DNA of 56,443 bases from Clostridia bacterium (GTDB taxonomy: Bacteria > Bacillota > Clostridia > Christensenellales > CAG-138): the NCBI GenBank assembly GCA_017541305.1, contig JAFXZJ010000062.1, positions 1 through 56,443 on the forward strand, in the 5' to 3' direction. Position 1 is the first letter of the stretch; every line of letters begins with the position of its first letter. Below, one piece after another: positions 38,589 to 56,443 of the stretch. Under the pieces are notes generated by a model. It saw only the letters and a list, made by a program, of their open reading frames with translations, did no database searches and was not told the origin of the DNA. Both the position numbers and the translations under genes were made by a program.

Positions 38589-38617
38589 TTGACACGCCCG
38601 ATCGGCTTTGATATAAT
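38589..38617 (+). promoter_or_regulatory. Consensus promoter of nrdD
   Basis: TTGACA (38589-38594), 17 nt, TATAAT (38612-38617), a perfect sigma-A consensus, consistent with a strong promoter kept in check by a repressor. Confidence 0.9.
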
Positions 38618-42774: not shown

Positions 42775-43182
42775 TTAAAAATAGATTGTACCTGAAAAAT
42801 AGGATTCAACTGCTGTATTTGAGCTAGGAATACTTGCCTTCATTACGATAGTACGTCCAACTTTTACGTAATCAGTATTGTGATCATAAAAGATGTTATA
42901 CAAAGCGCCACAGTTTACTGTCTGCGGATAGACAAGTAATTTGTGTCCATTCCAGTATGGCCGGAAAGAAATGTGGCTCTGATTACCAAGCCAAACCGCG
43001 GTTATATCTGCAACGCACTTTTGCACATATGTGCAGCTCTTTTGGCAGATTTCCTGTGAGTTTCCTCCGTGAACAGCAGCATAATTAAATACCGCAGGAT
43101 TCGTCGGTCCGTCTGCAAACGCGGTCGAGACCGAAACAAGCATGATCATTACGGCCAAGACAGTACAAAGCAACTTTTTCAT
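42775..43182 (-). CDS. Small secreted protein, probable ECF-regulon member
   Basis: 135 residues. The signal peptide MKKLLCTVLAVMIMLVSVSTAFA is followed by a Cys-containing ectodomain (QEICQKSCTYVQKCVADI, then GALYNIFYDHNTDYVKVGRTIVMKA), probably one small beta domain. No family is recognised. The start is the ATG at 43182, with AGGAGG 7 nt upstream. Its promoter at 43396-43439 has the same architecture as those of both ECF sigma genes, so it is probably a target of one of them, transcribed with a leader of about 205 nt. Confidence 0.72.
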   Translation of the reverse strand: MKKLLCTVLAVMIMLVSVSTAFADGPTNPAVFNYAAVHGGNSQEICQKSCTYVQKCVADITAVWLGNQSHISFRPYWNGHKLLVYPQTVNCGALYNIFYDHNTDYVKVGRTIVMKASIPSSNTAVESYFSGTIYF

Positions 43183-43395
43183 AGTTAATCCTCCTGATAG
43201 CACTATATTTGTTCGATTTGGGTTTTGGACTTGTCCTTTGGTTTCATCCCCCGAAGGTTTCCCCTTCGCGAAAGTTCAGTCGAGTGAGTTCTGATAACGG
43301 CTTGGATCGTCTTGTCGGTCCGCCTCCTTCCAAACCCGTATCATCCCGCCCGATCGGCCGTCCTGTGGGAGATTATTTTCCCCTCTACTTATATA
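43183..43395 (-). other. Long 5' leader without a recognised riboswitch
   Basis: About 205 nt between the ECF-type promoter and the small secreted-protein gene. It holds a CGAAGG-N5-CCTTCG hairpin (43252-43268), an isolated GGAAGGAGG with no start codon in range, and several purine-rich loops. The two sigma genes with the same promoter have leaders of only about 25 nt. I looked for known riboswitch cores and saw none that fit. Confidence 0.4.
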
Positions 43396-43439
43396 GACAA
43401 CTTTTTTGGCAGAATATTACAGGTTTTTAAAAATATATT
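43396..43439 (-). promoter_or_regulatory. ECF-type promoter, copy 3
   Basis: Read on the minus strand: AATATATT (43432-43439), exactly 32 nt, TGTC (43396-43399) followed by TATATAAGT. Inside the 32 nt, TGTAAT sits 16 nt before TGTC and is the presumed -35. The same arrangement precedes both sigma genes. Confidence 0.75.
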
Positions 43440-43482
43440 TTTCAAAACGGGTCTTAAACCCGATTTTGAGCGTTTTTTAGCC

Positions 43483-43956
43483 TCAATGGCAGTTGATCAC
43501 GCTCGACGTGACCGTCATGCTCTGCGTCTCGCCTATTGCCCGCTTTGCGAATAACGTCACCTTTACGCGGTACAGCGCGCCGCTGTAAAGTCCGGTGAAA
43601 GTGTGAGAATAACCAAATGTTTGCGTTGTATAGGAATACTGATTTGTAATCTCGGCGTCCGTTACCCATACATTCCCATCCCATCTTTGGACCTTCAAGC
43701 TTGAAAAACCGAGTTTCTCCATAGTTTCGTATGTATCCACGTCAAGCTCGACCTTTATCTTTTCGTTCCCTGTACTTCTCACTCTTAAATCTACAGATTC
43801 TATGAAGTCATAGTTGATTCGAGTGCCGATATGATTTTCAATTGAATACTCATCGGTATCGTAAACCATCGAAGACGTGTCGCCTTCCGCATATGCCATA
43901 CCAATCGACAATAAGCTCAGGGAAAGAGCAATAATCAAACATAAACACTTTTTCAT
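43483..43956 (-). CDS. Small secreted protein in the ECF1 operon
   Basis: 157 residues. A signal peptide (MKKCLCLIIALSLSLLSIGMAYA) is followed by a beta-rich domain: INYDFIESVDLRVRSTGN, KVELDVDTYETME, then YSGALYRVKVTLFAKRAIGETQ. This reads like a small immunoglobulin- or lectin-like fold; the family is not recognised. It starts 16 bp after the anti-sigma gene, with AAGGTGAG before the ATG, so it belongs to the sigma/anti-sigma operon and could be a ligand, effector or sensor of the same envelope response. Confidence 0.72.
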   Translation of the reverse strand: MKKCLCLIIALSLSLLSIGMAYAEGDTSSMVYDTDEYSIENHIGTRINYDFIESVDLRVRSTGNEKIKVELDVDTYETMEKLGFSSLKVQRWDGNVWVTDAEITNQYSYTTQTFGYSHTFTGLYSGALYRVKVTLFAKRAIGETQSMTVTSSVINCH

Positions 43957-43972
43957 ATTAACTCACCTTCTT

Positions 43973-44725
43973 TTATTGATTATTTCCCGAAAGCAAAGAT
44001 GCGACAATTGATTCAAGTTCATTCATTTCCACTTCTCCGAAAACCAGATAGCTCTCATTCTCGATTTCCGCGGTTATATAGTTCCAAGGCTTGGCATATA
44101 TAAGCGAACATTCGATTCCGAGTATTACCTTGCTGTCATATCTTGATGCGCCTTTGATGATCAGTGTGCGAGAACTGTATTCCGGGTCTATAGCGTCTGA
44201 GTAATAATGCGATTTGATTCGTATTTCTTTTCCGTTTATGCGATAAACAGCCGCGATCAACATTCCGTCAATATCGATATTACCTGACGCTTCCACGAAT
44301 TCCAACCCCAATTCTTCACCGGGCAAGCGTATCATATTTCCCACGCGGGCTTTGAATTCTTCTTCGGAAGTAAATCTGACGCGCTCGGAAGGGATGCTTG
44401 AAACGACCGGCTTATTAGAGGGATCCGCCGTGATCTCCGGCGCGTCCTCGTGCTGATCGAGCCCGGCGGAATAATCGAGGCGGAGGGTGGAGCCCGTCCA
44501 ACTGACGAAGGGCATGACCACCCGCACGCCGGCGGCCTCGGCGGTCGCGGTAGATATGAACAGCGCGAGCACCGCCGCGGCGGCGACGGAGGCGGCGCGG
44601 GAAAGGAAGCGCGGCAAAGTGCGGCGCGGCTTTTTCGGCGCCCTGTCGGTAAGGTTGGGCCGGCACTCCCATATCAACTCCTCGTCGATCTCTCCGAGAA
44701 GCTTTGCGAATTCGATGTCTGTCAT
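43973..44725 (-). CDS. Anti-sigma factor with DUF4367-like ectodomain, copy 1
   Basis: 250 residues. An N-terminal cytosolic segment (1-40) would hold the sigma factor; one membrane helix follows (about 44-66, ASVAAAAVLALFISTATAEA), then a linker and an ectodomain. Its C-terminal part (GIECSLIYAKPWNYITAEIE, YLVFGEVEMNELESIVASLL) resembles DUF4367 sensor domains. The ATG overlaps the sigma stop by 4 bp, showing coupling. The central part is nearly identical to the second copy at the DNA level, while the C-terminal third is AT-rich and diverged. Confidence 0.82.
   Translation of the reverse strand: MTDIEFAKLLGEIDEELIWECRPNLTDRAPKKPRRTLPRFLSRAASVAAAAVLALFISTATAEAAGVRVVMPFVSWTGSTLRLDYSAGLDQHEDAPEITADPSNKPVVSSIPSERVRFTSEEEFKARVGNMIRLPGEELGLEFVEASGNIDIDGMLIAAVYRINGKEIRIKSHYYSDAIDPEYSSRTLIIKGASRYDSKVILGIECSLIYAKPWNYITAEIENESYLVFGEVEMNELESIVASLLSGNNQ
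44301..44615 (-). repeat. 315-bp block shared with the second anti-sigma gene (inverted copy)
   Basis: It matches 55146-55460 in opposite orientation, colinear and without gaps. By eye I count about 17 differences, near 95% identity, including at silent sites. On both sides the genes diverge to protein-level similarity only. The block covers the membrane helix, the linker and the start of the sensor domain. Confidence 0.85.
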
Positions 44726-45282
44726 ATTGAATAACCCTCACTTTCCAAATAATTTCTCAGTTGTCTGCGCAGCTTCATCAGCACGTTCCTCACCGAGCCG
44801 ACGCTTCTGCCCTCATCCTCGGCAAGCTCGCCGTCGCTCATGAAATAGAAGTATTTCTTGATAAAAACGCGGCGCTTCCAATCGGGCAGGCCCATAAGGA
44901 ACCGATCGATCAGCTCCATCAGCTCCTTATTGAGCAGCTCCTTTTCGGGCAGGCCCTTGTCGGAGGCGACGTCGCCCAGCTGCGAAAGGGCGACCTCAAC
45001 ACACCCTCCCCCCCGCTTCATTGCGCGAAGCTCATGATAGCGGTTGAGAGCGATATTGCGGGTGAGCCTTAACGCATACCCGGCCATATTCAAAGGTTCG
45101 TTGGGCGGTATGGTTTCCCACATGCGGAGCAGGGCGTCGTTCACGCATTCCTGCGCGAAGTGCTTGTCCCCGAGTATGTTCTCCGCCAGCTTCAGGCAGA
45201 ACTCGCCGTACAGCCGTTCGGCCTCGGCGACGGCGGATTCTTCCCTTCGCAGGAACATGCCGAAAAGTTCCTTGTCGTCCAT
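44722..45282 (-). CDS. ECF RNA polymerase sigma factor, copy 1
   Basis: 186 residues. Region 2: MDDKELFGMFLRREESAVAEAERLYGEF, ECVNDALLRMWETIPPNEP, LTRNIALNRYHE. Region 4 HTH: LPDWKRRVFIKKYFYFMSDGELAEDEGRSVGSVRNVLMKLRRQL (positions about 130-175). The start at 45282 is set by GAGGTG and by the promoter, whose -10 lies at 45316-45319; a longer frame begins upstream of that -10. It directs RNA polymerase to a small regulon and is held by the anti-sigma protein encoded next to it. Confidence 0.92.
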   Translation of the reverse strand: MDDKELFGMFLRREESAVAEAERLYGEFCLKLAENILGDKHFAQECVNDALLRMWETIPPNEPLNMAGYALRLTRNIALNRYHELRAMKRGGGCVEVALSQLGDVASDKGLPEKELLNKELMELIDRFLMGLPDWKRRVFIKKYFYFMSDGELAEDEGRSVGSVRNVLMKLRRQLRNYLESEGYSI

Positions 45283-45315
45283 ATTCACCTCGTTGAAGGT
45301 CCCTTCACTTATAAT

Positions 45316-45359
45316 GACAGATTTTGGAGGCAAAAATCACCGCTTTTTTAAAATATATT
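45316..45359 (-). promoter_or_regulatory. ECF-type autoregulated promoter, copy 1
   Basis: Minus strand: AATATATT (45352-45359), 32 nt, TGTC (45316-45319), continuing CATTATAAGTGAA. The flank AAAATCTGTCATTATA is identical at the second sigma gene. The presumed -35 (GGTGAT here) is the weakest of the four copies. Confidence 0.78.
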
Positions 45360-45448
45360 TTTTCAGACGCGTTTTTTCGCCCTTTTTGGGTATAGAATAG
45401 GCGGGTAAGGCAGTGTGCGGGGCCCCGGCCCCGGGAAAGGAAGCAAGC

Positions 45449-45631
45449 ATGGCGGAATGGATAAGCGCGAATTGGGCGACGATCGCCGCGCTGGTATTCG
45501 TTGCGGCGCTGATCGGGATCGCGGTTTTCAGCATTATACGCAATAAAAGGAAGGGGCGCACCTCGTGCGGCTGCGGCTGCTCGGCCTGCCCCATGGCGGG
45601 GGAATGCAGCGGCAAAAAGAAGAAGGCCTGA
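45449..45631 (+). CDS. FeoB-associated Cys-rich membrane protein
   Basis: 60 residues. One membrane helix (about 8-29) is followed by a basic stretch and a Cys-rich tail SCGCGCSACPMAGEC, the pattern of the FeoB-associated Cys-rich family that usually accompanies ferrous-iron transport. No feoA/feoB gene is in this window. AAAGGAA lies upstream of the ATG at 45449, and TATAGA at 45391-45396 is a possible -10 box. Confidence 0.82.
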   Translation: MAEWISANWATIAALVFVAALIGIAVFSIIRNKRKGRTSCGCGCSACPMAGECSGKKKKA

Positions 45632-45657
45632 CCGCCCAAATATACTTTATTTTGGGG

Positions 45658-45686
45658 TTGACAAAACCCGCCCCCTGCACTATAAT
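45658..45686 (+). promoter_or_regulatory. Consensus promoter of tRNA-Arg
   Basis: TTGACA (45658-45663), 17 nt, TATAAT (45681-45686), 15 bp before the tRNA. Confidence 0.9.
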
Positions 45687-45701
45687 ACTTAAGCATTAAG
45701 T

Positions 45702-45778
45702 GCGCCCTTGGCTCAGCTGGATAGAGCGTTTGGCTACGGACCAGAAGGTCGGGGGTTCGAATCCCTCAGGGCGCGCCA
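45702..45778 (+). tRNA. tRNA-Arg(ACG), CCA encoded
   Basis: 77 nt. Acceptor GCGCCCT pairs with AGGGCGC, D-arm GCTC/GAGC, anticodon stem TTTGG/CCAGA with loop CTACGGA (anticodon ACG, reading CGU and, after A-to-I editing, CGC/CGA), T-arm with GTTCGAATC, discriminator G and CCA. It is followed by its own terminator. Fragments of its 3' end are scattered over the next 3.4 kb. Confidence 0.96.
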
Positions 45779-45780
45779 AG

Positions 45781-45812
45781 CAAAAACGGACCGCATCGCG
45801 GTCCGTTTTTGT
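45781..45812 (+). terminator. Terminator of tRNA-Arg
   Basis: CAAAAACGGACCGC-ATC-GCGGTCCGTTTTTG, a long perfect stem ending in T residues. Confidence 0.9.
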
Positions 45813-45824
45813 TTGGCATATTTT

Positions 45825-46190
45825 CGCCCTGAGGGATCGAACCCCGAAAGGGCGAAAAGCGTTAAGAAAAAGACCCGGTGGGTCTTTTTCAGCTTTTCGC
45901 CGCGGCGGACAGCGGATGCGCCGCCGCGGAAGGGAGTAATTGATACACGCAGCACCGAGGGGAAGTCAAGCCGTGCCCTGAGGGATCGAACCCCGAAAGG
46001 GCGGACGCCGTTAAGAAAAAGCCAACTGCTTGGCTTTTTCAGGCGGACGCCGCGGAGGAAAGCGCATGCGCCTCCGCGGAGAATCCCTCAGGGCGCCTCC
46101 TATCGATTCGAACCCCGAAAGGGCGAAAAGCGTTAAGAAAAAGACCCGGTGGGTCTTTTTCAGCTTTTCGCCGCGGCAGGCGCGGACGCG
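45825..46190. repeat. Array of three hairpin units joined to antisense tRNA-Arg 3' fragments
   Basis: Units A (45825-45930), B (45975-46079) and C (about 46106-46190). A and B start with a complement of the tRNA 3' end (CGCCCTGAGGGATCGAACCC, one T short), then each unit has nested stems: outer GGCGAAAAGC/GCTTTTCGCC and inner AAAAAGACCC/GGGTCTTTTT in A and C. B has GGCGGACGCC arms and inner AAAAAGCCAA/TTGGCTTTTT, so the inner stem changes on both sides together. A GC-rich hairpin closes A and B. A forward copy of the tRNA end (16 nt) lies at 46081-46096. A further AAAAAGCCAA stem is at 56056-56079. Confidence 0.78.
45920..45994. repeat. Direct repeat, left copy (tRNA-fragment unit)
   Basis: It matches 49087-49165 in the same orientation: GGAAGGGAG, then GAT-ACx-GC, CGAGGGGAAG and the antisense tRNA end. 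The two copies bracket 3.1 kb that holds the relaxase remnant, toxin-antitoxin pair and broken adhesin gene. Confidence 0.65.
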
Positions 46191-46426
46191 GCTGCCGAAG
46201 AGCTGCTTGAAGGTATCGACCGTGAAGACCTTCTCCGTGAGCAAACGGAGGTGTACGATCATATCGCCGAGGTCAACCGTGAGCTGAGGAGCCTGCGCTC
46301 CGAGCTTACCATTATCAGGAACCTTCGCAGGGATATTCCTCATATCGCAAATGAGCTCAATGTGGGTTTAGCAAGGAATAACGCCAAGGAACCCCGTGAG
46401 CGGAACAACACAGAGCAACAAAGATG
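46190..46426 (+). pseudogene. C-terminal remnant of a conjugative relaxase
   Basis: About 75 codons with no start of their own, read in frame from the repeat array to a TGA at 46424-46426. The heptad-rich segment (VYDHIAEVNRELRSLRSELT, then IRNLRRDIPHI) and the polar KEPRERNNTEQQR end resemble the coiled tail of relaxases from integrative conjugative elements of gut Clostridia. The catalytic N-terminal domain is absent. Recognition rests on a short low-complexity stretch and is tentative. Confidence 0.55.
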
Positions 46427-46460
46427 AACCTTATATTTGAAAACTCGTCTAAATCTGCTG

Positions 46461-46489
46461 TTGTATTTTACGAAAGATTATGGTACAAT
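46461..46489 (+). promoter_or_regulatory. Promoter of the toxin-antitoxin operon
   Basis: TTGTAT (46461-46466), 17 nt, TACAAT (46484-46489), 30 bp before the antitoxin ATG. Confidence 0.75.
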
Positions 46490-46519
46490 AATTACAGCGT
46501 AATGAAAGGAGCTATGACC

Positions 46520-46774
46520 ATGCCCAATATTAAGCCTGTATCCGATCTCAGGAACTATAACGAAGTCTTGAAAGATATCTCTGTCGGCGAACCAGTCTTT
46601 CTTACAAAAAACGGCAGAGGAAGATATGCTATTGTCGATATGGCCGAGTATGAAAAGACCAGAGCAGTTATAAAGCTGATGAGTGAGCTTGCCAAGGGTG
46701 AACGAAGCGGCAACGAAAACGGATGGATAGACATTGAGGACGTCGAAAAGGAGCTTGGGATCTCCAATGGCTGA
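46520..46774 (+). CDS. Phd/YefM-family antitoxin
   Basis: 84 residues. The N-terminus MPNIKPVSDLRNYNEVLKDI and GEPVFLTKNGRGRYAIVDMAEYE form the Phd/YefM DNA-binding fold; the acidic C-terminal helix would wrap the toxin. The start is 46520, with AAAGGAGC 8 nt upstream; an ATG at 46514 is too close to it. It overlaps the toxin gene by 8 bp. Confidence 0.92.
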   Translation: MPNIKPVSDLRNYNEVLKDISVGEPVFLTKNGRGRYAIVDMAEYEKTRAVIKLMSELAKGERSGNENGWIDIEDVEKELGISNG

Positions 46775-47081
46775 AATCAAGTTTTCTCCGGAGGCGCTCT
46801 CCGATCTCAAGCACATCAAAAGCTATATTGCAGAAGAACTCCTGAATGAGCAGGCTGCCGATAATACCGTGGCCGATATTATCAAGCGCATCAGAACGCT
46901 TTCGGATTTCCCGCAGTCGGGTGCGCCGCTCTCGTCCGTAATATCCATTGAAACCAACTACAGGTTCATCGTATGTAACAATTATACCGCTTTCTATCGG
47001 TATGAGAACGGGTCCGTCTATATAGCCCGTGTTCTGTACGGACGCAGAGACTTCATGCGGATACTGTTTGAAGAGAAATAA
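46767..47081 (+). CDS. RelE/ParE-family toxin
   Basis: 104 residues. EIKFSPEALSDLKHIKSYIAEEL at the N-terminus, then NYRFIVCNNYTAFYRYENGSVYIARVLYGRRDFM at the end (parts of one motif) are typical of RelE/ParE toxins, which cut mRNA on the ribosome or poison gyrase. The ATG lies within the end of the antitoxin gene. The pair is AT-rich and probably came with the mobile element whose remnants surround it. Confidence 0.92.
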   Translation: MAEIKFSPEALSDLKHIKSYIAEELLNEQAADNTVADIIKRIRTLSDFPQSGAPLSSVISIETNYRFIVCNNYTAFYRYENGSVYIARVLYGRRDFMRILFEEK

Positions 47082-47095
47082 CATCATTATTCATG

Positions 47096-47140
47096 AGCAC
47101 GCCTTAAAGCAACGGCTTTGGGGCGTGCTTTCATGATTTT
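47096..47140 (+). terminator. Terminator of the toxin-antitoxin operon
   Basis: AGCACGCC/GGCGTGCT stem with an internal AAAGC..GCTTT stem and T-rich tail, 15 bp past the toxin stop. Confidence 0.8.
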
Positions 47141-47146
47141 AATGTC

Positions 47147-47211
47147 CTCCTGATGTGTTTTCGGCGTAACTGGCAGGTCACGCTTGTACTATAACACATC
47201 AGGAGTTTTTT
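47147..47211 (+). terminator. Long hairpin with T-run
   Basis: CTCCTGATGTGTT (47147-47159) pairs exactly with 47193-47205 and is followed by six T. The 33-nt loop holds a further small stem. It may be a second terminator or the end of a lost small RNA gene. A CCCCGCC/GGCGGGG hairpin with TTTT follows at 47241-47264. Confidence 0.6.
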
Positions 47212-47273
47212 GTAACTGCCTCAACGGTAAACCTTTACGGAACCCCGCCGCTATGGCGGGGTTTTCGAGATAC

Positions 47274-47301
47274 AAGAAAAGAGCCGCTGAAAAACGGCTC
47301 T
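47274..47301 (-). terminator. Terminator of the beta-helix lipoprotein gene
   Basis: AGAGCCG/CGGCTCT stem followed on the minus strand by TTTTCTTG, 20 bp past the stop at 47322. Confidence 0.75.
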
Positions 47302-47321
47302 ATCCGGAGTTATGGTTATTG

Positions 47322-48791
47322 TCAGTTGGTTCCGGTCAGCGCGACACCGTTGACGTACAGCGTATAACCGTTTGAGATCACGCTCGAGGCGTCGCCGTTG
47401 AACTCAGTCACGTAGCTGTCGCCGGTCAGCGTCCACGTGCTGGTGGCGTCGAGGGTAACGGAGACGGTGCCGGCCTCGGCGGAAACCGTCGTTCCCGCGG
47501 CATTGGTGATGCTGCCGTCTATGCTGCCTTCAAAAGCGGAGCCGTTCGTCAGGCTCAGCGTCAGCTTTGAATTGCTGCCGACCTTTATCGCGCCATGAAG
47601 CTGCTGTGCAATGGCGTTCAGCGTCGCCTCATTGCTGCCGCCGCTCCATCCGTCGTCGCAAACGGAAAGGAGGATGTTATCAGCGTCCTCGCTGGTGATC
47701 GTGACGCCGGTAAGCGTGATGACCGCATTGGTGTTGGTCACGTGGAAGACGTGCCCGTTCCTGCTCGTAAGGCTGCCGTCCGTCATGGTGAAAAAGCTGG
47801 TGCCGCTGTCGGCGTCGCCGGACATGGACTGGTAGATCATGATGGCGTCCAGGAATGTGGCGTTGCCGTTGCACTTGGTATTGTTGGCGGTCAGGTCGCA
47901 GTTCGTCAGCTCGATGGAGTTCAGGCCTTCAATACAGACGCCCTCGGAAAGGTTTGAGATCAGCGTTGCATTGGCCGCATGTATCTCCGCAGTTGAGTAG
48001 ATCGCGGGCGAACCAAGACCGTTGGAGGTATAGGTGCCGCCGTCCGCATAAACCGTTCCGCCGCCTCTGTCGGTGCGGATCGGCGCGGAGGACTGTCCGC
48101 TCGTGGTAACTATCAGATTGTATGCCTTCGTAACGCCTCCGCCGGTCGTCATTATACCGCCGGAGCCGGAGCCGGAAGTGGTGATGGTCACGCCCGTGAT
48201 CACGACCGTAGTGCCGTCCCCCGACGCACCGTTCTGCCCGCCGTTGCCGCCGTAGCAGAATACGCCGTTAGCTCCGGCGGCGTCGGAAGTGACCGTGCCG
48301 CCCGTGATGGTCGTTGTCGAGCCTCCCATGACGAGAAGCGAGGCATTCTGACCGTAGAAATTGCAGTTGTCGCCGCCATCAGAGTCTCCTGATTTAGTGA
48401 CCGTAACGTTGTTAAAAGATACCGCCTCAGAAGTGTTTATCAGCAGAGCGCTCTCGTCCGCGGTCGAGGAGGAATACGTCTTCCCGTCCTCGGAGGCCGC
48501 TGAGGTTATCTCGATCGCTCCGGCATACACCACAGATGAGGCGTTGCCTCCGGGAGGATTGCCGCCGGGGCCTCCGGGTCCGTCAGGAGGAGCTCCGGGA
48601 GGATTGCCGCCGGGACCTCCGGGTCCGTCAGGAGGAGCTCCGGGAGGCGTGCCGTCGGGGGGATTGCCGCCGGGGCCGCCCTATGCAGACTGTGTGCTTT
48701 GGGCGTCGCTGTCCGAGCTGCCTGTGCTCCCGCAAGCCACAAGAGAAAGGATCAATAAGAGTGAAAGCATGATCGCTATGATCTTTTTCAA
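47322..48791 (-). pseudogene. Beta-helix adhesin-like lipoprotein interrupted by an in-frame amber codon
   Basis: The frame begins with a TTG at 48791 after AAGGAG: LKKIIAIMLSLLLILSLVACGS, a lipoprotein signal. After SDAQSTQSA a TAG (48681-48683) interrupts it, but the same frame continues at once with a Pro/Gly linker (GGPGGNPPDGTPPGAPPDGP, repeated) and a long beta-helix of threonine/glycine-rich repeats (SALLINTSEAVSFNNVTVTKSGDSDGG, GGIMTTGGG) to 47322, ending VNGVALTGTN. Similar proteins in Clostridia have signal, Pro/Gly linker and helix in one chain. Either the gene was lost by a nonsense mutation or TAG is read through. Downstream of TAG the nearest start is at 48533. Confidence 0.85.
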
Positions 48792-48907
48792 TGGATGTTT
48801 ACTCTCCTTTTCATAGTTTTTTATAGTATAACATTCATGGAAAAGCGCATCAACGCAGTTATGTGGCAATAGAATGTCTTTTTCAGCATAAAGTGCTCTT
48901 ACTTAAG

Positions 48908-49069
48908 TCAGATCCCCTCCGGTATCACCTCGTCGATGAAATGATCCCTTTTTGGCTTCGATATCCAGTTGTACTGCTTATCGCACTCCCACAGATCGAG
49001 CAGCGGCCCGAACGGCATCGCCCGGACCTCATCCTGTGAAAGATGAAGCCGGGCAAGACCGTAATACAA
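48908..49069 (-). pseudogene. Coding-like fragment, unknown
   Basis: About 53 codons from a possible TTG to TGA: LYYGLARLHLSQDEVRAMPF, then GPLLDLWECDKQYNWISKPK and a DEVIPEGI end. The look is of a small phage- or element-encoded protein, without a ribosome site. The frame stays open upstream through a GGCAGGCGC/GCGCCTGCC hairpin (49071-49094). The rest of 48792-49210 holds no gene. Confidence 0.35.
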
Positions 49070-49086
49070 AGGCAGGCGCTTTATAT

Positions 49087-49165
49087 GCGCCTGCCGAGGA
49101 AGGGAGCAGATACTAAGCTCAACAGCGAGGGGAAGCCAACTATGCGCCCTGAGGGATCGAACCCC
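49087..49165. repeat. Direct repeat, right copy (tRNA-fragment unit)
   Basis: Partner of 45920-45994. Its last 21 nt (49145-49165) are an exact copy of the antisense tRNA-Arg fragment at 45825-45845. Confidence 0.65.
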
Positions 49166-49210
49166 TCCGGCCGTGCGGCCAAGTCCTTCCCTTCACGGGC
49201 TCCGGCAGGA

Positions 49211-50935
49211 TCATCTCTGAGAAACGGTGAACAGCGAATAGAAGTAGCCCTTTCGATCCATGAGTTCTTTGAAGGTGCCCTGTTCCGAGACCGCGCCGTT
49301 TTTCAGCGCGAACAGGCGGTCGGCGCGGCGGAGTATGTTTTCGTCCAGGTCGTGGGTGACTATGACGCGGGTGTAGCCGTCCAGCTTGAGTATCGCGTCG
49401 AGCACCTCGAACGAGGTCTCCGCGTCCAGGGACGCCGTGGCCTCGTCCACGAAGAGCACGGGGGTCTTGCGCAGAAGCGCACGGGCGATGGAGATGCGCT
49501 GACGTTCGCCGCCGGACAGGCCGGAACCGTTTTCGCCGCAGAGATAATCGGCGCCCTTTTCGTCGATGAGCTTTTTAAGGCCCGAAAGCCGCACGGCGCG
49601 GTCGATTTCCTCCTCGGGGAATTCCGAGAACATGGTGATGTTATTACGGATGGTGCTGTTGAACACGAACACGTTCTGCTGAATTATGGACACGAGATCG
49701 TAGAGCGAGTCGGCGGAAACGGTTTTGAGCTCGTTTCCGTCATAGAGTATCTCGCCCCGATAATCCTTTGAGGAAGCCATCAAAAGATTCAGTATGGTCG
49801 ATTTGCCGCTGCCCGAGCCGCCCACGAGCGCATAGCAGCCGCCGGAACGCATTTCCATATCCACGCCGCGCAGCACGGGCTTTCCTTCTTCATACTCGAA
49901 CGCAAGATCCCTGATCGAGATCCCCTCGTCGAGTCTGGGCGGGATACGCCCGCCCTCGTCGGAAACGTTTTTGTTAAGCGCCTGCGCCAGCTTGTCGATA
50001 AGGCTGTGAGAGGATTTCATGCCGGCGAAGAACGCGGGGAACGCCTGGATGGGCCCAAGCACGTAATTCAGAAGCTGAACGAACACGATGGCGGTGCCCG
50101 CCGTGATCCCTCTGCCGGAGAGCGCCAGCGCGGCGGCCACAAAGAACACGCCGAACTGCAGTATCGCTCCCGCAATGCCCGAGGAATAGTTTACCATTAC
50201 GTTCACCTTGGCGCGCTTTTTCGAGGCGTCCGCCACGGCGTCGTTGCTGTCATCGTGCAGTTTGGCAATGTTTTTCTCCGCCTTGAAGCTCTTGATCACG
50301 GAGAAGCCCGTGAGCGCGTCCTTAAGCATGCCGGTATAGCTTTCCTTTTTATCGGAGACGTTCTTTTCCGCCGCCGCCGCCTTGTTTCCCAGAACGATGG
50401 AGACGATTATGGGCAGCAGGGAGAAGCCGATCGCGATAAGCGTCAAAAGCGGGCTGCACCATATCATCATACCCAGCGCGCCAACAAAGGTGACGCCGAC
50501 CTGTATAGTGCTCTGCAGCTTCCCGATAAAGTCGGTTTCGATGGTGTTCACGTCGTTGGACAGCGCGGAGATATAGAGCGAGCTGTTCTCGCCGGAGAAG
50601 GCCTGAATGCCCTTATCCATGAGCCGATCGAAAACGTATTCCCGATACTGCTTCATCGCCTTTGCGCGGAACTCGGAAAGGAACGTCCTGTCCAATAACC
50701 ATCCCAGAATGAACAGCGCAAACGCGCCTCCCGTGACGATGAGGAGCGTGCCGAAGCCGTAGGGGCATTCCCCGGAGATCAGGTCGGCGACCTCCTTGAT
50801 CAGCCATGAAATTACCAGCTCGGCCGCTGCGCCCAGCAGGGCTGCAATGATGGTCATTGCAAGGTTGAATTTGTTGCTGCGAAACAGCTCCCTGATGAAC
50901 GGGCGGCGCAGCGCGCTGATTTCTTTTTTAGTCAT
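49211..50935 (-). CDS. ABC transporter, fused permease and ATPase (exporter type)
   Basis: 574 residues. Six membrane helices (about 20-310) are followed by an ATPase domain: Walker A GGSGSGKSTI, signature LSGGERQRISIARALL, Walker B VLFVDEATASLD. It probably works as a homodimer or with a partner to export a peptide or lipid-like compound. The start is ATG 50935 (MTKKEIS), after GAGGGG. It begins 22 bp after the regulator gene, and no biosynthetic gene is adjacent, so the cargo is unknown. Confidence 0.92.
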   Translation of the reverse strand: MTKKEISALRRPFIRELFRSNKFNLAMTIIAALLGAAAELVISWLIKEVADLISGECPYGFGTLLIVTGGAFALFILGWLLDRTFLSEFRAKAMKQYREYVFDRLMDKGIQAFSGENSSLYISALSNDVNTIETDFIGKLQSTIQVGVTFVGALGMMIWCSPLLTLIAIGFSLLPIIVSIVLGNKAAAAEKNVSDKKESYTGMLKDALTGFSVIKSFKAEKNIAKLHDDSNDAVADASKKRAKVNVMVNYSSGIAGAILQFGVFFVAAALALSGRGITAGTAIVFVQLLNYVLGPIQAFPAFFAGMKSSHSLIDKLAQALNKNVSDEGGRIPPRLDEGISIRDLAFEYEEGKPVLRGVDMEMRSGGCYALVGGSGSGKSTILNLLMASSKDYRGEILYDGNELKTVSADSLYDLVSIIQQNVFVFNSTIRNNITMFSEFPEEEIDRAVRLSGLKKLIDEKGADYLCGENGSGLSGGERQRISIARALLRKTPVLFVDEATASLDAETSFEVLDAILKLDGYTRVIVTHDLDENILRRADRLFALKNGAVSEQGTFKELMDRKGYFYSLFTVSQR

Positions 50936-50957
50936 GATGGTTTCCCCTCTTTTCCTT

Positions 50958-52028
50958 TTATTGTTCTTCGGTAACCGCGCTCCAAAGAGCGGTGAACTCG
51001 TCGTTCTCAAATTGGCTTACCGCGTTGCGGACGCCGTCCATTGCGGTCGCCCCCATGTCATCGTGGGCGCTGGCGCCTTCGATGCGGTCGATAAAGCGGA
51101 CGTCGCTTTCGTTATAGCTGGGTGAGGCGTCGAAGAATGCGGCAAGCTCTTTGGCTTTGATAAGGGTATCGCGCGCCTCGTCACGCTGCCCGGACAGCAG
51201 CTGCGACCCGGCAAGCGCGGCGAGAAAAACGGCGCCGATCCTGTCGAAGTAGTTGGGCTTGTTAGCTTCCCGCAGCCCTTGAAGGAGCCCGATCGCCCAG
51301 CTTAGGATCGCCTGACAGGAAGTGTGATCGCCGCGTTTTAAGTATGCGTTCATATAGCCGATGACCGTGCTGATAAGATCGGCGAGTATCTTCGCCATGG
51401 CCTCCGAAAGAAACGGCATCGCTTCCTCAATGCGATCGCTTTGGGCCAGGCTGTTACCTATCAGGGGGCTGAACACTCCGTCCCCGTTATTGGCCTTCCA
51501 AAGCTCTACGGCCTTGTCCGTTTCGCCAAGCCCCAGATACGTTCGCGCGATCCTTCCGCAGATCGTCTGCTCGCTGACCTGCGGGTCGTCGTTCTGCGGC
51601 AGCAGCAGACGGGATTGCTCCAGGAGCTCCAGCGCGCGGTGAAGCAGGGCCTTGTCCCCGCTCTCATACCCGAACGCGCTGTAAAGCGCCGCGCTTTCGG
51701 TGACTATCCGGAATGAGTGCGGATACTTCTTGAGCGCCTTATTCGCCTCCGCAAGCCCTTCCCGATCCTTGCTGCGGCGATAATCCTGTAAACGCTTAAC
51801 CGTCGCATCAAGGCGGTTGTCCTTTATTTGATAGCCGAGCAGCACGTCCACGGAGGTATCGAAAAAGTCGGCCATTTGGATTATCAGCTCCAGCTCCGGG
51901 ATAGACAGCTTTGCCTCCCACTTGTAAACCGCGCCCGCGGTCACCCCCAGCGCCTCGGAAAGCTGCTCCTGGGTAAGCGACCTTTCCCTGCGGAAGGCGC
52001 GTATGTTCTCTGCCAGCATCATCTTCAT
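50958..52028 (-). CDS. Xre-family regulator with TPR-like C-terminal domain
   Basis: 356 residues. The HTH is at residues 5-60 (MLAENIRAFRRERSLTQEQLSEALGVTAGAVYKWE, shown in part by position). From about 75 onward paired helices form TPR-like repeats (KALKKYPHSFRIVTESAALY, ARTYLGLGETDKAVELW), the layout of peptide-responsive regulators and of DUF-type Xre proteins. GGAGG lies 7 nt before the ATG at 52028. It leads the operon with the ABC exporter and probably controls it. Confidence 0.88.
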   Translation of the reverse strand: MKMMLAENIRAFRRERSLTQEQLSEALGVTAGAVYKWEAKLSIPELELIIQMADFFDTSVDVLLGYQIKDNRLDATVKRLQDYRRSKDREGLAEANKALKKYPHSFRIVTESAALYSAFGYESGDKALLHRALELLEQSRLLLPQNDDPQVSEQTICGRIARTYLGLGETDKAVELWKANNGDGVFSPLIGNSLAQSDRIEEAMPFLSEAMAKILADLISTVIGYMNAYLKRGDHTSCQAILSWAIGLLQGLREANKPNYFDRIGAVFLAALAGSQLLSGQRDEARDTLIKAKELAAFFDASPSYNESDVRFIDRIEGASAHDDMGATAMDGVRNAVSQFENDEFTALWSAVTEEQ

Positions 52029-52059
52029 ATGCCCGCCTCCTTTTTTGTTTACGATGATG

Positions 52060-52098
52060 ATTATACAGCATCGGGATCGAAAAGTGAACCGACCGTTC
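52060..52098 (-). promoter_or_regulatory. Promoter and candidate operator of the Xre-ABC operon
   Basis: Minus strand TTCACT (52083-52088), 17 nt, TATAAT (52060-52065). A GAAC-N5-GTTC dyad (52086-52098) overlaps the -35 box and would suit the Xre protein. Confidence 0.68.
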
Positions 52099-52138
52099 AT
52101 ATCGTTCGGATTTTATTTTTCCTACCGACAGTATGAAA

Positions 52139-52170
52139 ACGGCTCCCTCGCCGAGGGAGCCGCTTTTTTT
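52139..52170. terminator. Terminator between the BspA-like gene and the Xre-ABC promoter
   Basis: CGGCTCCCTCG/CGAGGGAGCCG with T on both sides; it ends the BspA-like transcript, which stops at 52181. Confidence 0.8.
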
Positions 52171-52180
52171 CGTTTGCTTG

Positions 52181-54250
52181 TCAATCGCTGTTTTCAAGCA
52201 GGTTGACGTTGGTGGTTATGGTTTCGGTTTCGGCCGTGCCGGAATTGGGGCCTTCATACTCGATGTGCATCGTGACGGAGATATCGACGTCGCGGTATTC
52301 GGGACGTATGCCTGTGACGACAAGCGTGAATATGACGGTCTCATCGGGGTTATGGCGATAATCCTTTTTGCACTCGATATTGAGCTGCGCGCCGTTATCG
52401 TGCCTTACGACCTCGGCATAGCGGCGGGTGACCTCGGTGCCGTTATATGCGGGAGAGAGCTTTGCGATGAAGCGGATATCGCGCCAGCTGTCGTTAGCGG
52501 CGCGAGCGCGGATCTCGGCGCCGACCAGCTCGATCTCGGGGGTGATCCTGAGGGGGATGTAGATATAGTTCTTCATGTTGCACGCGTCAAAGGGCCTCAC
52601 CTCGCCCCATTCGGGATAATCCTCGGGATAGAACACCTTGACGACGGTCGCGGCATTGTTGAACGCGCCCTTTGCAAGCTTCTTTGTGTCGGGGCAGGGG
52701 CAGTTGAAGGTGATCTTTTTGAGCGCGGTGCAGGCGCCGAAGGCGTTGTTCTCTATGGACAGATTTGTAGCCTGAGTGATGTCGCCGAGCACGGTGACTT
52801 CCTCAAGCGAGGTGCAGAACTGGCACATGAAACCGGGGATCGAGGTGATCCCTGCGGGAACGGTCAGCTCGGTGATGGAGGAACAGCGCTGGAAGGCGTA
52901 CATGCCGATGGAGGTCACTCCTTCGGGGATCACGATCTCCTCCAAAGCGCCGCACTCGGCAAACGCGCTGTTGCCGATGTAGGTCACGGAATCGGGAATG
53001 TCGAAATGCGCAAGGGAGGAGCACATATAGAAGCAGTATTCGGGGATCGAGGCGGCGCCCGCGATGGAGGTGACGCCGGTCAGCGAGGAGCAGCCCTGGA
53101 AGCAGCTTGCGCCGTAGCCCCCTACGCCTTCGCCTATGGTGACGGTCTCGAGTTTGGAGCATCCGCTGAACAGCATCGAAGGCAGCGCGTCGACGGAAGC
53201 GTTGACGGTCGCGTTCACAAGTTCTCCGCAGGAGGCAAATGCGCCGGAGGAGATATCGGTGACGCTTTCGGGGATGGTTATGGACGTGATGGAGGTGCCC
53301 TCAAAGCAATCGCCGCCTATCGAAACGAGGTTCTGCGAAAGCACGACGGAATCCACGCCGGGGCAGTTATAGAAGGCGCGGTCGACGATGGCGGTGCAGG
53401 CGGGATCCATGACCACTTCGCCCTGATAGCCTTCGGGGCAGCGTATTAGCTGATCCTTATCCTTGGTGTAAAGCACGCCGCCGACCGAGCAGTAGGCGGT
53501 GTTGGCCTCGTCCACGTTGATCGCGGCGATGTTGTTTCCGCCGAAGGATGTGGAGTCAAGGGATATCACGGAGGCGGGGACGTTCACCTCGGTGAGCTTG
53601 GTGGAGGCGAACGCGTTGGCGCCGATGGTCTCAACGCCGTTTTCGATAACGAGGGTCTCAAGATTCGTCCAGCCGCTGAAAGCGCTTGCGTTTATCGTGC
53701 GAACGGAAGCGGGTATGGTGAGCGACGCGGGCTTCCATGAACCGAACGCGCCCGTGCCTATGGTTACGAGCGTTTCGGGCAGCGTGAGCTCGGTTGCAGT
53801 GGTCCAACCGGAAAAGGCTCTTTCGCCGATCGTTGCGATCGAGGAGCCCTGCGGGAAGGCGCTCATAAGGGGCATGCTGGCAAAGGAGAGCGTGCCGACG
53901 CTTTCAAGCGTGGAGGGCCAGGTGATCGATTCGACCTTGGTGAGGGTGTTGAAGGTGTAATCGCCTATGCGGGTGATCCCCTCGCCTATCACGATCGTTT
54001 TGCAGTTGTTCTTGATCGTGGTGTTGGTCACAAAGGGGCTCCTGCCGCTGCCGTAGGAAGAGAAATTCTTGGTCGCGCCGGACCCGGTCAGGGTCAGCAC
54101 GTAGGTATCGGGATCGTAGGAATAGGTTATGTTGGCGCCCTGGTCGCCGCATTCGCCGGTGATCTCGGCCGCAAAGGCCGCGGTCGGCAGCAGACAGAGC
54201 AGCAGCGCCGCAAGCGCGGCGATGCAGAAAAGGTTCAAAAGTCTTTTCAT
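52181..54250 (-). CDS. Secreted BspA-type leucine-rich-repeat protein
   Basis: 689 residues. The signal peptide (LFCIAALAALLLCLLPTAAFA) is followed by a short N-terminal domain, then about 17 repeats of the LRR_5/BspA kind at about 100-560, for example SITIPESVTDISSGAFASCGEL and ALEEIVIPEGVTSIGMYAF. The C-terminal 120 residues are a separate beta domain (ITPEIELVGAEIRARAANDS, YNGTEVTRRYAEVVRHDNGA). It is expected at the cell surface, binding host or other bacterial proteins. There is no sortase signal or dockerin. The start is ATG 54250, with AGGAG 7 nt upstream. Confidence 0.9.
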   Translation of the reverse strand: MKRLLNLFCIAALAALLLCLLPTAAFAAEITGECGDQGANITYSYDPDTYVLTLTGSGATKNFSSYGSGRSPFVTNTTIKNNCKTIVIGEGITRIGDYTFNTLTKVESITWPSTLESVGTLSFASMPLMSAFPQGSSIATIGERAFSGWTTATELTLPETLVTIGTGAFGSWKPASLTIPASVRTINASAFSGWTNLETLVIENGVETIGANAFASTKLTEVNVPASVISLDSTSFGGNNIAAINVDEANTAYCSVGGVLYTKDKDQLIRCPEGYQGEVVMDPACTAIVDRAFYNCPGVDSVVLSQNLVSIGGDCFEGTSITSITIPESVTDISSGAFASCGELVNATVNASVDALPSMLFSGCSKLETVTIGEGVGGYGASCFQGCSSLTGVTSIAGAASIPEYCFYMCSSLAHFDIPDSVTYIGNSAFAECGALEEIVIPEGVTSIGMYAFQRCSSITELTVPAGITSIPGFMCQFCTSLEEVTVLGDITQATNLSIENNAFGACTALKKITFNCPCPDTKKLAKGAFNNAATVVKVFYPEDYPEWGEVRPFDACNMKNYIYIPLRITPEIELVGAEIRARAANDSWRDIRFIAKLSPAYNGTEVTRRYAEVVRHDNGAQLNIECKKDYRHNPDETVIFTLVVTGIRPEYRDVDISVTMHIEYEGPNSGTAETETITTNVNLLENSD

Positions 54251-54295
54251 TGTGTTTCTCCTAACTTGGCTCTCGGGAGCCGATTTGCGTCTTTT

Positions 54296-54324
54296 AATAT
54301 ACCTCTTTTTGCAAATAATGTCAA
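54296..54324 (-). promoter_or_regulatory. Sigma-A promoter of the BspA-like gene
   Basis: Minus strand TTGACA (54319-54324), 17 nt, TATATT (54296-54301). It lies back to back with the ECF-type promoter of the second sigma gene, about 45 bp away. Confidence 0.75.
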
Positions 54325-54368
54325 GGAGCCGGTGGGGAGACAGCACTGCCTTCGGGGAGCCCCGCAAA

Positions 54369-54412
54369 AATATATTATTTTGAAACTGCAACGTTTTGTT
54401 ATAAAATCTGTC
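54369..54412 (+). promoter_or_regulatory. ECF-type autoregulated promoter, copy 2
   Basis: AATATATT (54369-54376), 32 nt, TGTC (54409-54412), continuing CATTATAGGTGAA. TGCAAC, 16 nt before TGTC, is the presumed -35 with the AAC core common in ECF promoters. Confidence 0.8.
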
Positions 54413-54445
54413 ATTATAGGTGAAAACTCAATGCATGGGGTTTTT

Positions 54446-55006
54446 ATGGACGACAAGGAACTTATCGGCATGTTTCTTCGCCGTGAAGAGGCCGCCGTCG
54501 CCGAAGCCGAACGGACGTACGGCGAGTTATGCCACTGGGTTGCCATGAACGTTTTGAGGGACGAAGAATACGCGCGCGAATGCGTAAACGACGCCCTTCT
54601 TAAGGCATGGGAAGCCATACCTCGGGAAAAGCCCGAAAATCTGGGCGGATATCTGGTCGTGCTCACCCGCAACACTGCGCTGAATCGCTATGAGGAGATC
54701 CACGCGCTGAAAAGAAGCGGGGCGTATTCGGATCGCCCTGTTCACGAGATACACAACCTTGCATCACGCGTGGGGCTTCCGGAGGACGAGCTGATGTATA
54801 AGGAGCTCAAGCGCAGCGTAAACGAGTTTTTACGCGCTCTTCCGCCGGACAAGCGCCGTATATTCGTAAGCAGGGTGTTTCTGCTCATGCGCGAGTCGGA
54901 GATCTCCGAAGCATACGGCATAAAGACCTCAACGGTGAGGAGCACTCTGCTGCGTATAAGGAAAAAGCTCAGGATCTATCTCAGAAACGAAGGCTATGAC
55001 GTTTGA
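54446..55006 (+). CDS. ECF RNA polymerase sigma factor, copy 2
   Basis: 186 residues, the same length as copy 1 when started at ATG 54446 (MDDKELIGMFLRREEAAVAEAE). Region 2 (ECVNDALLKAWEAIP, LTRNTALNRYEE) and region 4 (LPPDKRRIFVSRVFLLMRESEISEAYGIKTSTVRSTL, in part) are intact. An ATG at 54431 is in frame, but its AGGTGA would sit at the very start of the transcript predicted from the TGTC box. The two sigma proteins are clear paralogues and are much more different from each other than the shared anti-sigma block is. Confidence 0.92.
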   Translation: MDDKELIGMFLRREEAAVAEAERTYGELCHWVAMNVLRDEEYARECVNDALLKAWEAIPREKPENLGGYLVVLTRNTALNRYEEIHALKRSGAYSDRPVHEIHNLASRVGLPEDELMYKELKRSVNEFLRALPPDKRRIFVSRVFLLMRESEISEAYGIKTSTVRSTLLRIRKKLRIYLRNEGYDV

Positions 55007-55035
55007 AATTTAACACTGCGAAAGGACGAAAAACC

Positions 55036-55782
55036 ATGAAGGATCTCGAATTTTTAAAGCTCTTCGGCGATATCGACTGCGATATGGTATGCGAATGCCT
55101 GCCTGCCCGTGCCGGCAAAAAGCCGCAAAAGACCGTCCGCACCGTGCCGCGCTTCCTTTCCCGCGCCGCCTCGGTCGCCGCCGCGGCGGTGCTCGCGCTG
55201 TTCATATCTACCGCGACCGCCGAGGCCGCCGGCGTGCGGGTAGTCACGCCCTTCGTCAGTTGGACGGGGTCAGCCCTCCGCCTCGATTATTCCGCCGGGC
55301 TCGATAAACATGAGGATGCGCCGGAGATCACAGCGGATCCCTCCCATAAGCCGGTCGTTTCAAGCATCCCTTCCGAGCGTATCAGATTTACTTCCGAAGA
55401 AGAATTCAAGGCCCGCGTGGGAAATATGATACGCTTGCCCGGTGAAGAATTGGGGTTGGAGTTTGTTTCAGCAAAAGGCGCTTTCAGAGAAGATGCGGCT
55501 GTTATCACTTCAAACTATACGATTGATGGAAAAAAAATAATGATAGACTCATCGCTCCACGCCGGGATCATAGGAACAGAATACAGTGCAAAATCCTTGA
55601 TCCTCAGCGACGTTTCAAGATATGAACAGAAGGAGATAGCGGGGATCGAATGTACCTTGGCGTATGGAGCACCGTGGAATTATGTATCCATAGTTATTGA
55701 AAACCAAAGTTACCTTGTTTTCGGCGAGGCTGAAATGAGCGTACTTGAAACGATTGCAGCATCTATGCTTGCTTCGAAATAA
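55036..55782 (+). CDS. Anti-sigma factor with DUF4367-like ectodomain, copy 2
   Basis: 248 residues. The layout is as in copy 1: cytosolic sigma-binding segment (1-40, FLKLFGDIDCDMVCECLPAR), one membrane helix (about 45-66), linker and ectodomain ending YLVFGEAEMSVLETIAASML. AAAGGA precedes the ATG at 55036; an earlier in-frame ATG at 55003 overlaps the sigma gene end. The C-terminal 100 codons are AT-rich and differ from copy 1, so the two sensors may answer different signals while sharing the membrane core. Confidence 0.82.
   Translation: MKDLEFLKLFGDIDCDMVCECLPARAGKKPQKTVRTVPRFLSRAASVAAAAVLALFISTATAEAAGVRVVTPFVSWTGSALRLDYSAGLDKHEDAPEITADPSHKPVVSSIPSERIRFTSEEEFKARVGNMIRLPGEELGLEFVSAKGAFREDAAVITSNYTIDGKKIMIDSSLHAGIIGTEYSAKSLILSDVSRYEQKEIAGIECTLAYGAPWNYVSIVIENQSYLVFGEAEMSVLETIAASMLASK
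55146..55460 (+). repeat. 315-bp block shared with the first anti-sigma gene (inverted copy)
   Basis: The counterpart of 44301-44615. The two blocks are inverted relative to each other and 10.5 kb apart, long and similar enough to recombine. Confidence 0.85.
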
Positions 55783-56405
55783 AACAACGATGTGACCTCA
55801 TGGGACCCGGAACTCTTCGTGCCCAACAGTCGATCCCTCAGTCGGCTTCCGCCGACAGCTCCCTTTGCGCAAGGGAGCCTTGCGCATCCGACCATGCCTC
55901 CCTTGTGTAAAGGGAGGCGGCATTTCGACCGCAGGGAGAAAAGCCGGAGGGATTGTCTCAAGGTTGGTTTCCCCGCGCGGGAAACCATCGATAATGTCCC
56001 CTCATCAGTCGTCTGATATGACCCTGATGCGGCAAGCGCATCAGGCACTCGGCTGAAAAAGCCAAGCATTTGGCTTTTTCCGGGCGCCTCCTGCCCCGCC
56101 AAGGGGAAGCCTTTTGGTTGACGCCATCCCGAGCCTTCCCCCGCCGCGGGGAAGGTGCCACGAGCGGTGAAGCCGTGAGTGACGGATGAGGGGGATCCGA
56201 AGCCACGATGGTTATTTTCTTTGAAATATCCCCTCATCACCGCTCCGCTTAAGCTTTCCCGCCAAGGGGGAAGCCCAACGCTTTGCATCCTCAAAAGCTT
56301 TCTCCCGGGCGTGGAGGGCAGCCCGACAGCCGCCCCAAACCCCCGATTTTCTCGTACGACCGTACGAAAACGGGCATTTGAGTACCAAAAATGGTACTCA
56401 GCCAA
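55783..56405. other. 620-bp mosaic of palindromic repeats, no gene seen
   Basis: Successive stems: GTCGGC/GCCGAC (55841-55856), GCTCCCTT/AAGGGAGC (55858-55878), GCCTCCCTT/AAGGGAGGC (55896-55918), AAAAAGCCAA/TTGGCTTTTT (56056-56079) and CCTTCCCC/GGGGAAGG (56134-56155), with CCCTCATC near 56231 and GGATGAGG near 56183. Long frames crossing this on both strands are compositional artefacts. It separates the anti-sigma gene from the fourth ECF-type promoter. Confidence 0.65.
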
Positions 56406-56443
56406 AATATATTTTAAAAAGGGTGTAATTTTCGCCCAAAAAA
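56406..56443 (+). promoter_or_regulatory. ECF-type promoter, copy 4, cut by the window end
   Basis: AATATATT (56406-56413) is followed by 30 nt up to the window edge. The stretch has TGTAAT at 56424-56429, the same offset as in copies 2 and 3, and a poly-A end as in copy 3. TGTC is predicted at 56446-56449. Confidence 0.6.

Follow-up and report, generated by a model that had tools for sequence, protein, structure and literature searches.

The 56,443-nucleotide contig JAFXZJ010000062.1 of a Clostridia bacterium (Christensenellales; CAG-138), analysed here in full and called the window, carries a palindromic octamer, AATATATT (8 bp), at a fixed distance in front of promoters resembling those of extracytoplasmic function (ECF) sigma factors. 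We propose that these sites are ECF-type promoters with an upstream promoter (UP) element in front, and that the octamer is probably, judging by where it lies and how it is phased, an UP element preferred by this lineage and used whatever the sigma factor. An earlier note on this stretch had taken the shared architecture for the mark of a regulon, an idea that is half right: the octamer is a general promoter element, of a known kind but in an unusually readable form.

ECF-type promoters in the window and in the genome

Three full sites occur without any mismatch at 43396-43439 (−), 45316-45359 (−) and 54369-54412 (+), with exactly 32 nt between AATATATT and TGTC, as the earlier note had described. 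Read in its own orientation, each consists of the octamer, 10 nt, a −35-like hexamer (TGTAAT, GGTGAT and TGCAAC, respectively), 16 nt and TGTC. At the promoter of an operon encoding a small secreted protein and a DUF6034 lipoprotein, the upstream box, a predicted distal UP subsite, lies at 43432..43439, the ECF-like −35 TGTAAT at 43416..43421 (a position common to our ten-site alignment), the −10 core TGTC at 43396..43399 and the conserved discriminator/start region TATATAAGTAGAGGG at 43381..43395, all on the minus strand. The same parts precede sigma gene 1, also on the minus strand: the octamer (45352..45359), GGTGAT in the −35 place (45336..45341), a poor match, TGTC (45316..45319) and the discriminator/start region ATTATAAGTGAAGGG (45301..45315). 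On the plus strand, sigma gene 2 has the octamer at 54369..54376, TGCAAC at 54387..54392 and TGTC at 54409..54412, with the conserved start region after this core at 54413-54427. The window contains four octamers in total, each at one of the four described sites; tested against chance within the window, with up to two mismatches, the pattern was found four times for 2.21 expected, an unremarkable count. ECF sigma promoters have an AAC-like −35 core and a CGTC or TGTC −10 some 16-17 nt apart. The suspected ECF-like −35/−10 pair is supported: TGYAAY stands 16 nt before TGTC at the 43396 and 54369 sites and in the same place in the truncated fourth copy, which bears out the count of three in the earlier note; 45316 is the exception.

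This fourth copy (56406..56443, +) comprises AATATATT and TGTAAT before the contig ends. The window ends where contig C28 ends, and its last 141 nt (56303-56443) recur exactly at the close of contig C6 and again at the beginning of contig C7, so that the assembly branches here. On C6 the copy continues with TCTGTC (spacing 32), followed by a DUF6034 lipoprotein gene, and on C7 with CTGTC (spacing 31), followed by a gene with a similar start. The TGTC predicted at 56446-56449 is therefore present on the first branch and 1 nt earlier on the second; the spacing is 32 or 31, and the assembly is compatible with either.

Genome-wide enrichment, a check named in the earlier note, is clear in the organism's own genome (G000; 2.42 Mb, 66 contigs), where an exact search for AATATATT-N32-YGTC gave 13 matches (eight TGTC and five CGTC) compared with none for the control, the pattern read backwards. 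The corresponding counts are 10 and 1 in G008, of the same genus, and 66 and 59 summed over the remaining 59 searched genomes, among which 11 of the genus contribute 17 and 5. The typical site has a −35 close to TGTAAY, 16 nt, a TGTC −10 and then TATANGTRRARGG. TGTAAY or TGCAAC followed by N16-TGTC is found at two full window sites (43396 and 54369) and at several places elsewhere. TATANGTRRARGG comes immediately after the −10 core and runs on into the region where transcription would start, also at sites with a diverged −35 and −10; the compact motif YGTCWNTATANGTRRARGG gives 20 matches with up to two mismatches, compared with five in the reversed control, and TATANGTRRARGG was absent by eye after the 12 sigma-A TATAAT boxes inspected. 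We built a sequence-only profile, R1, from the ten aligned sites and scored 150 candidates per genome in a first look, with E-values that are rough. At E ≤ 0.01 it recovers 18 places in the own genome, the ten training sites included, and, within the genus, 17 in G008, eight in G007, four in G011, three in G002, two in G005 and one each in G001 and G010; none of the candidates scored in G003, G004, G006, G009 and G012 matched.

Behind the ECF-type sites lie sigma genes 1 and 2, a third sigma gene (contig C29) and a further one (C53), DUF6034 lipoprotein operons (in the window, C1 and C6), further genes for putative secreted proteins or lipoproteins, and one for a putative membrane protein that has no Pfam match. 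The C29 locus (L007) has the sigma/anti-sigma layout of the two window operons and is the third such operon; its sigma gene is split, with regions 2 and 4 in separate short frames. The own genome has 34 region-2 and 38 region-4_2 matches, from which, after subtraction of housekeeping and sporulation-type factors, we count about 30 ECF-like genes (a rough count, without classification).

The 32-nt spacing holds at the three full window sites but is not universal. An exact octamer precedes the −10 core in nine of the 32 sigma-family loci scanned by script, at 32 nt in five and at 42-43 nt in four, all in the own genome; one of the latter has a second copy at 62 nt. This count takes in −10s departing from YGTC (TGTG, CATC twice and TGAG). 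The script was wrongly anchored at some loci (for example L077 and L082), where spacings were read by eye; two further ECF loci read by eye have the octamer at 33 and 44 nt, and sigma gene 1 itself has it at 32 nt. A second promoter class appears at L018, L020, L024 and L029 of the own genome, partly before other putative lipoproteins, with the same octamer and spacing, TTCCGCTTTT-like −35 regions and CGTC; it is perhaps another ECF specificity.

The octamer at sigma-A-type promoters

The octamer is not confined to ECF-type promoters. In the whole own genome, AATATATT-N{18,48}-TATAAT occurs 28 times compared with twice reversed (two pairs of these matches use one octamer with two TATAAT boxes each), with spacings of 33-35 nt in 12, 42-46 nt in ten and other values in six. 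Restricted to the sigma-A geometry, AATATATT-N33-35-TATAAT is found 131 times versus once reversed, and each of the 13 genomes searched in the genus is positive, including G003, G004, G006, G009 and G012, those without an R1 match. Recurring promoters retain the octamer genus-wide; one of them, which we take to be CIRCE-like, is listed for ten of the 13 genomes. We also counted octamers in noncoding DNA sampled from 0.86 Mb of G000 (about a third, window included), 0.40 Mb of G008, 0.40 Mb of G012 and 0.36 Mb of G013, which belongs to another genus of the same family. AATATATT is the most over-represented octamer in G000 (44 on both strands, 5.0 expected) and in G008 (30, 1.6 expected), shares first place among A/T octamers in G012 (16, 2.5 expected) and ranks about 1160th in G013 (4, 1.0 expected).

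In the window itself, one-mismatch boxes lie 11 nt before the −35 of promoters whose −10 boxes are at 38612 (nrdD), 14387 (a further unit) and 45681 (tRNA-Arg). The last of these, AATATACT (45639..45646, +), precedes the TTGACA (45658-45663) and TATAAT (45681-45686) of the sigma-A-type promoter of tRNA-Arg (45702-45778); by its sequence and place it is the same element at a predicted housekeeping promoter.

The ECF set is marked by its downstream half, TGTAAY-N16-TGTC plus TATANGTRRARGG, and not by AATATATT. The candidate regulon stands as a searchable set of promoters; the octamer as its mark does not, since it is also present at sigma-A-type promoters throughout the genus. The same distribution bears on the suggestion that a second regulator, one dedicated to the regulon of sigma 1 and sigma 2, binds AATATATT. 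All four window octamers are at ECF-type sites, and the 13 matches versus none at the ECF spacing would fit such an operator; yet the box also precedes sigma-A-type promoters, in five genomes without an R1 match at E ≤ 0.01 among others, and in one-mismatch form those of tRNA-Arg and nrdD in the window. We thus rejected a regulon-specific operator, which we consider highly improbable, as the octamer is not confined to the regulon promoters.

A similar argument applies to duplication. The sites could be alike only through recent copying of sigma/anti-sigma/lipoprotein cassettes, with a spacing that was inherited rather than selected: the two window anti-sigma genes share 88% DNA identity over 421 nt, 141 nt are common to C6, C7 and the window end, and several targets are DUF6034 paralogues. 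However, octamer and spacing are kept where the ECF genes behind them have diverged and at further putative lipoprotein genes whose −35s differ, and sigma-A-type promoters carry the octamer as well. A pure duplication artefact was rejected on these grounds, and we give it scarcely any credence.

The octamer is also phased. We predicted sigma-A promoters in the sampled DNA of G000, G008 and G012 by their −35 and −10 consensus alone, ignoring the octamer, and obtained 225, reduced to 223 after the removal of two shifted duplicates; eight of 85 octamer occurrences fell outside 5-60 nt and were dropped. The remaining 77 (up to one mismatch, 5-60 nt before the −35) cluster strongly, 64 of them within 2 nt of 11, 21.5, 32, 42.5 or 53 nt, and an in-phase copy is found at 57 of the 223 promoters. 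The Rayleigh statistic nR2 at a period of 10.5 bp is 28.5; 300 sets of anchors drawn at random from noncoding DNA averaged 1.2 and never exceeded 4.8. Among 232 A/T octamers tested with one mismatch allowed, AATATATT ranks first by nR2; phasing is also seen for others, as would be expected of UP elements. The control genome, G013, with 33 promoters and five octamers in range, a small set, showed no phase. At the ECF operons the phase is that of the sigma-A promoters, with spacings of 32 and 42-43 nt. Of the four window sites, those at 43439, 54369 and 56406 come after a foldable hairpin. The origin of the box as a terminator remnant was considered and rejected, as hairpins leave the phasing at sigma-A promoters unexplained.

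UP element or dedicated factor

We read AATATATT as a distal UP subsite on account of its position, its fit to the consensus, the A+T profile of neighbouring promoters, an ordinary C-terminal domain of the RNA polymerase alpha subunit (alpha-CTD) and the precedent of SigAb, discussed below. Predicted promoters without the octamer have A+T peaks at about 7 and about 16 nt before the −35, that is, at two UP subsites, proximal and distal. At a gap of 11 nt the octamer covers −54 to −47, and gaps of 10-12 nt correspond to about −55 to −46; the distal UP element is placed at −58 to −45 in the available text of one study (PMC2613000). AAATATATTTT, present in nine of the ten aligned ECF sites, matches the UP consensus AAAWWTWTTTTNNNAAA (as given in the accessible part of PMC2412878). 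For alpha-CTD-dependent promoters of Bacillus subtilis, the portion at hand of another report locates A/T-rich sequences centred at −43 and −53 (PMC4495994). The alpha subunit of the organism has an ordinary CTD with RSYNCLK and NLGRKSLEE intact, and among solved structures it matches RNA polymerase alpha chains best. The DNA-contacting residues of this domain are, in Escherichia coli numbering, R265, N268, C269, G296, K298, S299 and E302. Several traits of an UP element are found here: an A/T-rich stretch within the span of about −58 to −37, a fit to the consensus, the same helix face when displaced, an alpha subunit with DNA-contacting residues, and independence of sigma, as the octamer stands at both ECF-type and sigma-A-type promoters, all predicted from sequence. 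In a 1998 study, an UP element reportedly stimulated both SigD- and SigA-dependent promoters. The guess that the upstream box is an UP element is therefore supported by position, consensus fit and phasing, whereas that of a second-regulator site fails on the spread of the octamer beyond ECF-type promoters.

If this is correct, the alpha-CTD would bind the octamer, which would face the polymerase from one side of the helix in front of the −35; the spacing of 32 nt would be fixed because of this facing, and copies at 42-43 nt would be the same site one helical turn further upstream. Regulon specificity would come from the sigma-contacted −35 and −10 together with the start region, and the UP element would contribute strength. 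Transcription would start within the conserved region downstream of TGTC, the ECF-type promoters would depend on sigma 1, sigma 2 or their paralogues, and the sigma operons would be autoregulated.

Several observations weigh against the UP-element reading. The octamer is much sharper than a generic UP element: a palindrome of the same composition, AAATATTT, occurs 19 times versus twice reversed in the 13 genomes, compared with 131 for AATATATT at the same spacing. A-tracts are the classic UP sequence, yet the poly-A octamer is below expectation in the noncoding DNA of G000 and G012 and is unphased. When exact matches only are considered (18 points, R 0.62), AAAATATA, ATATATTT and AAATATAT, which overlap and belong to the same tract, outscore AATATATT. 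The phase reaches about 42 nt before the −35, and alpha-CTD usually acts less far upstream than that. Outside the genus, AATATATT-N33-35-TATAAT gives 37 matches versus 13 reversed in 18 genomes, and the excess is genus-confined; yet G013 and G017, of the same family and without an excess, have an identical alpha-CTD contact motif. Among ECF loci, L075, L076, L079, L084 and L088, which have a GTGAARG start region, lack AATATATT within one mismatch in 75 nt, and a tandem pair near C45:44862 has it at about 45 nt by eye, with −10s that are uncertain. As a separate observation, the largest excess among the 18 outside genomes (9 versus 1) is that of G016, from another genus of the same family, whose alpha-CTD is slightly different (SFNCLK).

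The sharpness of the octamer, its restriction to the genus and its far-upstream phasing lead us to keep a separate global factor in consideration. A genus-specific DNA-binding protein, a general activator or nucleoid protein, could sit on AATATATT on the side facing the polymerase and aid many promoters whatever their sigma factor. Class I activators act in phase from several turns upstream, and a phase extending over about four turns, a box that ranks first of all noncoding octamers in the G000 and G008 samples and not in that of G013, and its confinement to one genus despite an unchanged alpha-CTD contact motif in relatives would all suit such a protein. On the other hand, the main position is that of the distal UP subsite, the sequence matches the UP consensus, other A/T words are phased too, and no candidate protein was found, none having been sought. 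We regard this protein as rather unlikely. A broader possibility, to which we attach much the same low probability, is that promoters of this genus, housekeeping and ECF alike, have AATATATT as an additional element that works whatever the sigma factor; it would lie one to four turns upstream on a single helix face, and its reader would be either a global protein dedicated to it or an alpha-CTD in a retuned arrangement. Through such a reader, one factor could govern how strongly a large share of transcription units is expressed.

Genes behind the window sites and known systems

ECF sigma factor 1 (186 aa; 44722..45282, −) matches Pfam Sigma70_r2 over the cut-off (8.5e-06), Sigma70_r4_2 below it (3.6e-04) and NCBIfam sigma70-ECF (1.6e-14). 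It is followed by a putative anti-sigma factor 1 (43973..44725, −), predicted to have a short N-terminal segment, one apparent membrane helix and an extracytoplasmic part, and without a Pfam match, and then by a small secreted protein with, by eye, a signal-peptide-like start (43483..43956, −). The 43396-43439 promoter leads into another small protein, secreted as judged by eye and without a Pfam match (42775..43182, −), and then into the DUF6034 lipoprotein (41178..42599, −; Pfam PF19499, 5.5e-23). ECF sigma factor 2 (54446..55006, +; Pfam r4_2 2.3e-09, r2 7.5e-08) is 51% identical to sigma 1 in an alignment. No NCBIfam equivalog exceeds its cut-off for sigma 1 or sigma 2 among the 25 families listed (of 39 and of 61, respectively). 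Putative anti-sigma 2 (55036..55782, +) is a paralogue of anti-sigma 1 with 68% amino-acid identity; the DNA of the two genes is 88% identical across 421 nt near the start and far more diverged beyond, and from the sequences the two proteins have a predicted membrane/linker part in common and different outer parts. After tRNA-Arg, at 45780-46180, the sequence seems by eye to repeat the 3′ portion of this tRNA, and short hairpins accompany the repeats.

In a limited literature search we found no such box described. The degeneracy of UP elements normally hides them in raw sequence; here the octamer is so fixed in place and phase that whole genomes can be scanned for it, at promoters of two sigma classes together and in 13 of 13 searched genomes of the genus. 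It offers a natural test of alpha-CTD, or of another factor, acting with ECF sigma factors, as well as a practical promoter finder for this group that separates the selection of an ECF regulon from mere strengthening.

The closest known relative is the classical UP element. Like it, AATATATT is A/T-rich and lies just upstream of the −35, at −54..−47, with a fit to AAAWWTWTTTT, helical phasing, sigma-independence and an alpha-CTD carrying the contact motif; unlike it, AATATATT is one sharp palindromic octamer and not a loose A/T stretch, occurs as far as about 42 nt ahead of the −35 and is genus-restricted. An ECF promoter with an upstream A/T run, probably an UP element, is known from Acinetobacter: according to the available text of its description, replacing this run costs PsigAb tenfold in activity, and four consecutive T in the spacer account for a 2.5-fold effect (PMC12153292). 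The remark in the earlier note that an upstream box is not part of a usual ECF promoter was therefore too strong. PsigAb differs in belonging to another sigma factor and another phylum, and the part of that paper at hand describes no octamer common to sigma classes (PMC12153292).

The gene arrangement, for its part, recalls that of Bacillus. SigW and SigM exemplify ECF sigma/membrane anti-sigma operons with autoregulated promoters. In the window too, a sigma gene is followed by that of a putative membrane anti-sigma factor, and one promoter type precedes both the sigma gene and envelope or secreted targets; the differences are the roughly 30 ECF-like genes in 2.4 Mb (a rough count), SigW and SigM models that stay below their cut-offs, and the start region TATANGTRRARGG.

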